The notes under the pieces were generated by a model, which worked only from the letters and a program-made list of their open reading frames with translations, was not told where the DNA came from and did not search any database. A DNA stretch of 64,000 nucleotides. Source: Saprospiraceae bacterium (GTDB lineage: Bacteria > Bacteroidota > Bacteroidia > Chitinophagales > Saprospiraceae). A program made the position numbers and the translations under genes. The number at the start of each line of letters is the position of its first letter. The stretch's first letter is position 1. The DNA lies in contig JAHDIE010000009.1 of assembly GCA_020630955.1 (NCBI GenBank), positions 1 through 64,000 on the forward strand. The letters run 5' to 3'. Of this stretch, positions 44,380 through 50,298 are shown piece after piece.

Positions 44380-44389
44380 ATCATTTTAT

Positions 44390-44767
44390 AAATTGTGGAA
44401 AACTTATACTTATGCACTTGTAAAATTGTTTTCCAACCATAAACATATCATTCGGTGGATAATTATTTTTCTATCAACAAGATATCTTGAAAAATTAACA
44501 ATGATATTTTCAATAATAAAAATTTTAACAATTAATCAACTTATCCACATTAATAAGTTTTATACTTAGTAGAACAGGTAAGTACTTGTGGAAAATCTGT
44601 TACTTATTTCTGAATAATGCAAGTCAAAAGAGTTATTAACAATTCCACATGATTAATGATTATAATAGTTTTTTATTTAAATATTAATTATAATTAATAG
44701 AGTGAAGTGAAAATGTGGAAAGCTTAATTTGAAATTGTCTACTTTCGATCTAGTAAAATTGATCTGA
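44390..44767. other. oriC: Candidate chromosomal replication origin (oriC): DnaA-box cluster in AT-rich intergenic DNA
   Basis: Perfect TTATCCACA at 44541-44549; one-mismatch boxes at 44394-44402 (TGTGGAAAA), 44454-44462 (GGTGGATAA), 44587-44595 (TGTGGAAAA); weaker TCCACA cores at 44641-44649 and 44714-44722; very AT-rich stretch ~44660-44700. Confidence 0.6.
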
Positions 44768-46541: not shown

Positions 46542-48848
46542 TTAAGGTCTAGTAGATTTCTTTTTCTTAGCTTTTTGCATTTCGTTTTCTTGATTGAATT
46601 GTTGTCTTTCAAACATTTCAAATTTACTTTCTTCTTTCTTAGGTGGAAAAGAGTTATTACTTGTATCAGTATCTGCAGTTTCTAAGAAAGGATCTAAAGT
46701 TATACTCACCACTTCTTTTTCTTTTGCAAACACTTTAGATACGTTTGTACTTGATCCCATTTTCCATATTTCTGCTGGAATTCTAATTAACTCATTTGAT
46801 CCATCTGAATAGGTAAATTCTAAAATAACAGGCATTACAAGACCACCTTTATTCGATAAATTAATCTGATAGTAATTGAGATCGTCATTAAGAACAGCTT
46901 TTTCTTTTTCGCTTAGAGAGGTATAGTATTCATCATAATCTTTTTGATCCATTTGGTTTGCTTTAAATGGATCATAAGTAGAGTAGAAATCTTTTAAGCT
47001 TGAATCTTGTTCATCATATGTTTCTTCTATTTCCTCTTTGTTTCTCATATAAGAAATACCTTTTTCTCTATCGGTTATCTTACCTGCATTTGGATCTGGT
47101 TGTTTAGAATTTACTTTAAAGTATTCAACATTGTCTATTGAGATATCTACATGGTCATTGGTATAAAACCATCCTCTCCAAAACCAATCCAAATCTACAC
47201 TTGATGCATCTTCCATGGTTCTAAAGAAGTCAGCTGGAGTGGGATGTTTGAACATCCACCGATTTGCATATTCTTTAAACGCAAAATCAAATAACTCTCT
47301 GCCCATGACAGTCTCTCTTAAAATATTCAAGGCTGTTGCTGGTTTACCGTAGGCATTGTTACCAAATTGATGAATAGATTCTGAGTTAGTCATAATTGGA
47401 GATATCTTTGATTTATCTCCTCCCATGTAGGGAACAATTTTGTGAGCTGGTCCTCTTCTACTTGGATAATTTCTCTCCCATTGAACTTCTGTTAGATATT
47501 GTAGGAAAGTAGTTAGACCTTCATCCATCCAGGTCCATTGTCTTTCATCTGAATTAACAATCATTGGAAAATAATTGTGACCTACTTCATGAATAATGAC
47601 AGAGATCATTCCATACTTTATCCTTTTTGAATAAGTACCATCTTCTTCACATCTTCCATAATTGAAACATATCATAGGATATTCCATTCCAATTCTTGCA
47701 GCATTGATTGACCATGCTACTGGATATGGGTAAGGAAAAGTATAATGAGAAAACCATTTTAATGTGTGAGCTACTGCTTTTGTAGAATATTTTTCCCAAA
47801 GAGGATTTCCTTCTTTAGGGTACATAGACATAGCCATAACTTTTGTTCCATCTATTTGTTTTACTGCCATAGCATCCCAGATAAATTTTCTGGAAGAAGC
47901 AAAAGCAAAGTCCCTTACATTCTCTGCATGGAAAACCCATGTTTTTTTGTTATTTGATCTTTTGGTTTCTCTTTTTTCTGCTTCGGATTGGGTGGCTATA
48001 ATAATTGGTTGTTCATATTCCTCACTTGCTTTTTTTAGTCTTTTCTTTTGCTCAGTACTAAGTACATCATTTTCATTTTGAAGTACACCTGTACTTGCAA
48101 CCAAATGATCTGAGGGTACGGTGATACTAACTTTATAGTCTCCAAAACTAAGTGTAAATTCACCTCTACCTAAGAATTGTTTATTCTGCCAACCATAAAC
48201 ATCGTTATACATGCACATTCGAGGATAGAATTGTGCAATTGTATAAAGGTAGTTATCATCTTTTTCAAAATATTCATATCCTGATCTTCCTCCGATTTGC
48301 ATTCTATCATTAATATTATACCACCATTTTATCTTAAAAGAATAAGATTCTCCAGGATTTAGTGCTGTTGGAATGTCAACCCTCATCATGGTTTTATTGA
48401 TTGTATTGGGTAAATCTTGCCCAGTGGTAGTTTGCACTGATTCTATTTTAAAGCCACCATCAAAATCTGGATTTAGTGACCCTAGTGTTCTAACATTCAT
48501 TTTATCATCAACTTCATTTGTTTTGATAATATGACTATCTGAATCTAATGCTCTAACATTTTGATCAAGTTGTACCCATAGATATCTTAATATATCAGGA
48601 GAGTTATTGTGATAAGTTATTGTTTCTTCACCATGTATGGTCTGGTTCTCATCATCTAATTCTAATGATATTTCATAATCTGCTTTTTGCTGCCAATATT
48701 CATGTCCTGGTGCTCCCGACGCAGTTCTATAACTATTAGGGGTAGGTAAATCTTCGCTAAGTTGTTTGAACTTATTTTGATTGGTATTTACTTGAGCTGA
48801 AAGAGTTGTCCCAGTTATTAATAAACAAAAGAATAATATTTTTTTCAT
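46542..48848 (-). CDS. M1 family aminopeptidase-like metallopeptidase
   Basis: Signal peptide; IIHEVGHNYFPMIVNSDERQWTWMDEGLTTFLQYL (HExxH...E). Confidence 0.92.
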   Translation of the reverse strand: MKKILFFCLLITGTTLSAQVNTNQNKFKQLSEDLPTPNSYRTASGAPGHEYWQQKADYEISLELDDENQTIHGEETITYHNNSPDILRYLWVQLDQNVRALDSDSHIIKTNEVDDKMNVRTLGSLNPDFDGGFKIESVQTTTGQDLPNTINKTMMRVDIPTALNPGESYSFKIKWWYNINDRMQIGGRSGYEYFEKDDNYLYTIAQFYPRMCMYNDVYGWQNKQFLGRGEFTLSFGDYKVSITVPSDHLVASTGVLQNENDVLSTEQKKRLKKASEEYEQPIIIATQSEAEKRETKRSNNKKTWVFHAENVRDFAFASSRKFIWDAMAVKQIDGTKVMAMSMYPKEGNPLWEKYSTKAVAHTLKWFSHYTFPYPYPVAWSINAARIGMEYPMICFNYGRCEEDGTYSKRIKYGMISVIIHEVGHNYFPMIVNSDERQWTWMDEGLTTFLQYLTEVQWERNYPSRRGPAHKIVPYMGGDKSKISPIMTNSESIHQFGNNAYGKPATALNILRETVMGRELFDFAFKEYANRWMFKHPTPADFFRTMEDASSVDLDWFWRGWFYTNDHVDISIDNVEYFKVNSKQPDPNAGKITDREKGISYMRNKEEIEETYDEQDSSLKDFYSTYDPFKANQMDQKDYDEYYTSLSEKEKAVLNDDLNYYQINLSNKGGLVMPVILEFTYSDGSNELIRIPAEIWKMGSSTNVSKVFAKEKEVVSITLDPFLETADTDTSNNSFPPKKEESKFEMFERQQFNQENEMQKAKKKKSTRP

Positions 48849-48938
48849 GTGTATTTTATTTATTCAGTTGAAACAAATATAAATAATGCTATTTAGAATT
48901 TCTGATGTTATATGTATCTCCTGTAAAACGAATTAGTA

Positions 48939-48954
48939 TGTTTCACGTGAAACA
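48939..48954. promoter_or_regulatory. parS: parS centromere site (copy 1)
   Basis: Exact TGTTTCACGTGAAACA palindrome. Confidence 0.9.
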
Positions 48955-48985
48955 ATTTGTCTAGATACATAAATAATAAGAAATA

Positions 48986-49001
48986 TGTTTCACGTGAAAC
49001 A
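48986..49001. promoter_or_regulatory. parS: parS centromere site (copy 2)
   Basis: Exact TGTTTCACGTGAAACA; both copies share the longer TATGTTTCACGTGAAACAAT; start-to-start spacing 47 bp. Confidence 0.9.
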
Positions 49002-49005
49002 ATCC

Positions 49006-50298
49006 TTAATATTTTGATAGCAAAAACGACTTGAAGGATTGAAAGTTGTTGTTTAATTTAATACTTACTTTTTCTTTTTCCAGAAGTTGCTGAATTGAAT
49101 CTGGAAGATTGACTTTAGTTGAGATTGAATTTTCTACATCTTCAATAAATTTGCATGGGTGAGCAGTCTCTAAAAATATTACCTCGGCATTATTGTTTTC
49201 TAGAAAACTTTGAGCTGCCATAAATCCAATAGCACCGTGAGGATCCAATATATAAGAATAATCTTTGAAGACTTTTCTCATACAATCTTTTATAGCATTG
49301 TCATCATACCAATATCCACTAATATTTTCACGCATGGATTCAAGGGTAGAATAGAGTTCTTGCATTCTTACAAAGTTGGATGGATTTCCAACATCCATAG
49401 CATTGGCAATTGTTTCTTTTGAATGTATGGGGAGGTATTCTCCAGTGTCAAGATAATCAGGTACTACTTTGTTTATATTGGTAGCAGCAATATACTTATG
49501 AATTGCTAGGCCCATTTTTTTAGCCAATAGACCAGCTGTTAGATTTCCAAAATTTCCACTTGGGACAGCAAAAACTAAATTATCATCGGTTCTTTTTTGT
49601 TTGTAAGCTTCGAAATAATAAAACGATTGTGGAATCAATCTGGCGATGTTGATTGAATTTGCAGAAGAAAGATTAAATCTTTGATTTAAATCTTGATCCA
49701 AGAATGCTGTTTTAACAATACGCTGGCAATCATCGAAGTTTCCATCAATTTCACAAGCAGTAATATTTTTACCTAGAGTGGTCAATTGCTTTTCTTGAAT
49801 ATCACTCACCTTACCTGAAGGGTAAAGAATAACAACATTAATTCCTTCTGCTTCATAAAAACCAGAAGCAACAGCACCACCGGTATCTCCGCTGGTTGCA
49901 ACTAAAATTGTTATTTCATTATTATTTTCTTTATTGAAATAGGACATCAACTGGGCCATAAATCTTGCACCAAAATCTTTGAAAGCCAAACTGGGCCCAT
50001 GGAATAATTCAAGGGTAGCAATTTTATCTGTGATGTTTACCACAGGTGCAGCAAAGGTCATAGAACGATTAATGATTTCCATCAGATCATTGGCGGGAAT
50101 ATAGTCCTTGAATAAATTAGTACAAATAGTAAAAGCAATTTCTTGAAAACTATATTGAGGTAAATGTGTGAGAAAAGAATCATTAAGCATTGGAATATCC
50201 AGTGGCATGTATAATCCTTTATCCTCTGCCAATGAATTCAAAACTGCTTTTCTTAAGTCAACAATATTATTTTTATTATTTGTGCTATACAGTTTCAT
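49006..50298 (-). CDS. thrC: Threonine synthase
   Basis: HGPSLAFKDFGARFMAQLM; LVATSGDTGGAVASGFYEAEGINVVILYP. Confidence 0.96.
   Translation of the reverse strand: MKLYSTNNKNNIVDLRKAVLNSLAEDKGLYMPLDIPMLNDSFLTHLPQYSFQEIAFTICTNLFKDYIPANDLMEIINRSMTFAAPVVNITDKIATLELFHGPSLAFKDFGARFMAQLMSYFNKENNNEITILVATSGDTGGAVASGFYEAEGINVVILYPSGKVSDIQEKQLTTLGKNITACEIDGNFDDCQRIVKTAFLDQDLNQRFNLSSANSINIARLIPQSFYYFEAYKQKRTDDNLVFAVPSGNFGNLTAGLLAKKMGLAIHKYIAATNINKVVPDYLDTGEYLPIHSKETIANAMDVGNPSNFVRMQELYSTLESMRENISGYWYDDNAIKDCMRKVFKDYSYILDPHGAIGFMAAQSFLENNNAEVIFLETAHPCKFIEDVENSISTKVNLPDSIQQLLEKEKVSIKLNNNFQSFKSFLLSKY

Follow-up and report, generated by a model that had tools for sequence, protein, structure and literature searches.

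Within the window, a 64,000-nucleotide stretch of DNA from a member of the Saprospiraceae, two identical copies of the palindrome TGTTTCACGTGAAACA lie in the intergenic region between an M1-family metallopeptidase gene and thrC, raising the question of whether they serve the neighboring genes or the chromosome that carries them. We hold with very high confidence that the doublet is the parS centromere of the chromosome, part of a ParABS system, and that the replication origin is a few kilobases away. In the literature that was searched, no paper dealt with parS in Saprospiraceae.

The palindromic doublet and its setting

The locus has the following features.

48939–48954, unstranded: predicted parS site 1, TGTTTCACGTGAAACA, a perfect palindrome and exact match, aligned across four species of the genus
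48986–49001, unstranded: predicted parS site 2, TGTTTCACGTGAAACA, a perfect palindrome and exact match, aligned across four species, with TGTTCCACGTGGAAC variants in two of them
48849–49005, unstranded: intergenic region (157 bp) between thrC and the M1 peptidase gene containing the doublet, poorly conserved in the genus outside the palindromes
46542–48848, minus strand: M1-family metallopeptidase (Pfam PF01433), flanking gene, position marker only
49006–50298, minus strand: thrC, threonine synthase (TIGR00260, PF14821, and PF00291), flanking gene, position marker only

Exact matching agreed with the sequence-only reading that TGTTTCACGTGAAACA occurs exactly twice, in each case within the common 20-mer TATGTTTCACGTGAAACAAT, and annotation using Pfam and TIGR models agreed with its placement of the copies between the two genes. 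The copies are 47 bp apart from start to start with a gap of 31 bp, the doublet spans 63 bp, and site 2 lies 4 bp past the thrC stop codon. Both are the sole matches to TGTTTCACGTGAAACA in the window with up to three mismatches, and in the assembly (3,969,647 bp, 95 contigs) nothing else matches the core GTTYCACGTGRAAC with one mismatch allowed. A search of the assembly for TGTTTCACGTGAAACA with two mismatches produced one extra site, on contig C43, as many as were produced by the reversed-pattern control. The number of copies expected by chance from base composition is 2.4e-5 in the window and about 0.0015 in the genome, bearing out the earlier statement that two copies are highly non-random. 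The closest relatives of the flanking M1 peptidase are also from Saprospiraceae, the first being an uncultured member with 89% identity and the next having 60–70%.

The proximity of site 2 to the end of thrC makes it necessary to consider that the sites are a transcription terminator or 3′ stabilizer of that gene, with the two palindrome copies pairing as a 16-bp stem in the transcript. RNA of the thrC strand does fold into a stem (−31.4 kcal/mol, z −3.9), which starts a few bases past the stop codon; however, such pairing is expected of any two palindrome copies, and in relatives the motif adjoins other genes (e.g., mnmG), with copies as much as about 700 bp apart. As a terminator scan found no terminator-like site (a G+C-rich hairpin plus T run), an intrinsic terminator was rejected, and we judge the explanation as a whole to be very improbable, while a side effect of the stem on the thrC mRNA is conceivable. 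An Rfam search around the sites identified no RNA family.

Partition proteins and the identity of the sites

The genome has one match above the cut-off to the ParB model (TIGR00180, 183.8 bits). This protein has the domains ParB_N, HTH_ParB, and ParB_C, and its gene, in the region C18:42462-42992, adjoins that of a ParA-type ATPase, on a different contig from parS. The same 199-kb contig as parAB also encodes a full-length Smc (910 bits). Consequently, neither of two findings that the sequence-only reading had named as grounds against a centromere was made, as a ParB homolog is encoded, with a ParA gene adjacent, and the palindromes are not scattered round the chromosome, only two being present in the assembly, clustered together. 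Alignment with solved structures identified R166 and G194 of ParB as the equivalents of Caulobacter R173 and G201, which read parS and are reported to be invariant in ParB (PMC7383237). Tyr and Lys occupy the remaining two specificity positions, as is typical of the order. Among well-completed Saprospiraceae genomes, three (G008, G061, and G163) had no match to TIGR00180, and one of these, G008, retains one parS core match.

The ParB also matches the model for Noc (TIGR04285, 231.8 bits), which raises the alternative that the sites belong to a nucleoid-occlusion protein of the Noc type, or to the ParB of a plasmid, and not to a chromosomal ParB. The cut-off for Noc, however, is 315, which that score does not reach, and at the positions where this ParB has Arg and Gly the solved Noc proteins have Gln and Arg, based on a structure-based alignment. 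Furthermore, the site sequence of Noc differs from parS (PMC7383237) and a single ParB was found in the genome. A Noc-binding site was rejected on the basis of the exact parS sequence, the sub-threshold score and the R and G residues, and we give this explanation in either form even less credence than that of a terminator.

The preferred reading, that the doublet is a centromere, draws on several properties together. The sequence TGTTTCACGTGAAACA is the documented ParB consensus of chromosomal parS (PMC10197239), and its occurrence in a genome encoding a ParB with parS-reading residues is consistent with the earlier identification of the copies as canonical ParB/Spo0J sites. There are two exact copies of the 16-bp palindrome, they are few and clustered (two in 3.97 Mb), the cognate ParB has parS-type specificity residues, and in three relatives (G086, G184, and G054) the sites are located near the origin as judged by the switch in GC skew. 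For the window's own fragmented genome the evidence of nearness to the origin is indirect, comprising the skew switch on the contig and a cluster of DnaA boxes.

In ParABS systems parS is where ParB loads, before sliding and clustering with the aid of CTP; ParA moves the clusters apart, and parS is also where Smc is loaded. By analogy with these known systems, ParB from the parAB operon elsewhere on the chromosome would load on each 16-bp palindrome, and then slide and cluster around parS using CTP. ParA would draw the two daughter ParB clusters apart, thereby segregating the chromosomes, and ParB would probably also load the Smc complex at parS. The arrangement resembles the chromosomal parS of the Bacillus, Caulobacter, and Pseudomonas type (PMC10197239) in having the same 16-bp palindrome in few copies, cognate ParB and ParA genes and, as seen here in relatives, a location near the origin. 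It differs from that type in that neither the parAB operon nor dnaA is adjacent and in that the two sites form a 63-bp doublet.

Position relative to the replication origin

Mapping of the sites against GC skew, the check that had been proposed for them, was carried out in relatives, with skew sampled in 20-kb pieces in five genomes (G086, G184, G054, G082, and G182). A clear skew was obtained for three closed or near-closed genomes, G086, G184, and G054, and parS was found to be at the origin in each. In G086 (7.51 Mb, one contig) the sampled skew was negative to 2.35 Mb and then positive to about 5.8 Mb, and at a fine scale its cumulative minimum was at 2.350 Mb, relative to parS at 2.364 Mb. 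The sign of the skew in G184 changes between 355 and 400 kb, with parS at 346 kb, and in G054, which belongs to another family, parS at 1.347 Mb is close to the switch, which occurs near 1.34 Mb. The other two of the five genomes sampled (G082 and G182) showed no clean two-arm skew.

The gene dnaA is 2.4 Mb from parS in G086, 1.2 Mb in G184, and 0.4 Mb in G054. In G086 parB is near the terminus, at a distance of 3.4 Mb from parS; in G184 the distance is about 1.0 Mb. The parAB operon is thus unlinked from parS in the genomes checked. The earlier proposal that the doublet marks the chromosomal partition locus consequently stands in the sense of an origin-proximal centromere, but not in the sense of a par operon, as parAB is elsewhere (on another contig here and 1–3.4 Mb away in two closed relatives). 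These distances are in keeping with a study of gut bacteria, Bacteroidota among them, which mapped parS clusters using GC skew and Hi-C and concluded that dnaA is an unreliable marker of the origin and parS clusters a reliable one (PMC10197239). As in those gut Bacteroidota, parS marks the origin here even where dnaA fails to do so; unlike the two Bacteroidota species of that study, in which no known condensin was found, a clear Smc homolog is present here.

A candidate origin was identified close to the doublet in the window itself.

44380–44767, unstranded: probable oriC (prediction), AT-rich intergenic stretch separating dtd from ctaA; its DnaA-box cluster is the densest on the 107-kb contig

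The candidate has four DnaA boxes within one mismatch of TTATCCACA, between 44394 and 44595, and is 4.2 kb from parS. A box density this high was equalled in one of 100 Markov simulations, making it weak evidence when taken alone. The assignment gains weight from clusters in relatives: the nearest relative (L054) has a similar cluster of three DnaA boxes upstream of ctaA, of the clusters in 340 kb of G086 the densest is at the skew minimum, about 14 kb from parS, and G082 (L187:14953-15362) has two parS sites interleaved among thirteen boxes within about 410 bp. Counting against an oriC at 44.4 kb, the cumulative skew minimum of the window's contig is nearer 55–57 kb than the DnaA-box cluster, and the local skew is firmly positive only from about 57 kb. 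We take the origin to be in the 44–57 kb interval, which in either case puts it no more than about 8 kb from parS. The origin-centromere of G082 is unusually compact, and that genome has a second parS pair 5.4 kb away.

Conservation and variation among relatives

The parS core motif was present in 126 of 149 related genomes, most often as exactly two copies near each other (86 genomes have exactly two); the reversed-pattern control gave zero in most of the genomes listed. The exact site was absent from the other 23, some having one-mismatch variants at the same loci and others none. When four species of the genus were compared, the main long stretches of intergenic sequence to be conserved were the two palindromes (TGTTTCACGTGAAACA or TGTTCCACGTGGAAC-type). 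In many Saprospiraceae genomes parS adjoins the M1 peptidase gene and/or thrC, for instance in the closed genome G086, which shares the gene order M1-parS-thrC-thrB-thrA. In eleven genomes checked from other families in the order, parS or its one-mismatch variants adjoin mnmG/gidA, a gene that is about 84–260 kb from parS in four Saprospiraceae genomes.

This change of neighbors bears on the possibility that the sites are an operator for a transcription factor controlling the M1 peptidase or thr genes. Their palindromic nature and location upstream of the M1 gene are what would be expected of an operator, but there are only two copies genome-wide, and the motif matches the consensus documented for ParB (PMC10197239). 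The motif is retained from one family to another whereas the genes beside it are not, which argues that the sites are not regulatory elements of their neighbors, and we consider an operator, like a Noc-type site, exceedingly improbable. Retention of the motif despite changed flanks is what is expected of a centromere.

The exceptions include three genomes of one family (G038, G134, and G143; ParB loci L307, L314, and L313, respectively) that have no canonical parS. Each carries one or two copies of GTTTCACGGGAAAC, in which one half-site is altered, and in their ParB the residue corresponding to G201, reported as invariant (PMC7383237), is Ala. Based on these sequences, it is possible that ParB and parS have co-evolved in this group. 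Separately, two genomes, G072 (locus L304) and G024 (locus L302), have no exact parS core, and GTTCCACATGGAAC-type variants adjoin the M1 peptidase gene in them; G072 has four such copies and a ParB that is divergent in the recognition region. The genome G145 (locus L301), also without the canonical core, has three variant sites (GTTCTACGTGGAAC and GTTCCATGTGGAAC) upstream of mnmG.

The doublet is almost certainly an ordinary parS centromere, a standard bacterial device that is useful here mainly as a marker of where replication of the chromosome starts. What it adds is an origin-proximal site located away from both parAB and dnaA, a neighborhood in Saprospiraceae that differs from that in other families, and variant sites in a few lineages. 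A broader proposal, to which we assign about an even chance, is that the surroundings of the origin and centromere have been reshuffled in Saprospiraceae, with parS at thrABC/M1 instead of mnmG and parAB and dnaA unlinked, and that coupled changes in parS and ParB may have occurred in a few related lineages. For Saprospiraceae, on which there are little chromosome-biology data, there is now a concrete centromere and a probable origin. The result favors parS over dnaA for locating the origin in the order, and the natural ParB/parS variants are available for testing how centromere recognition evolves.
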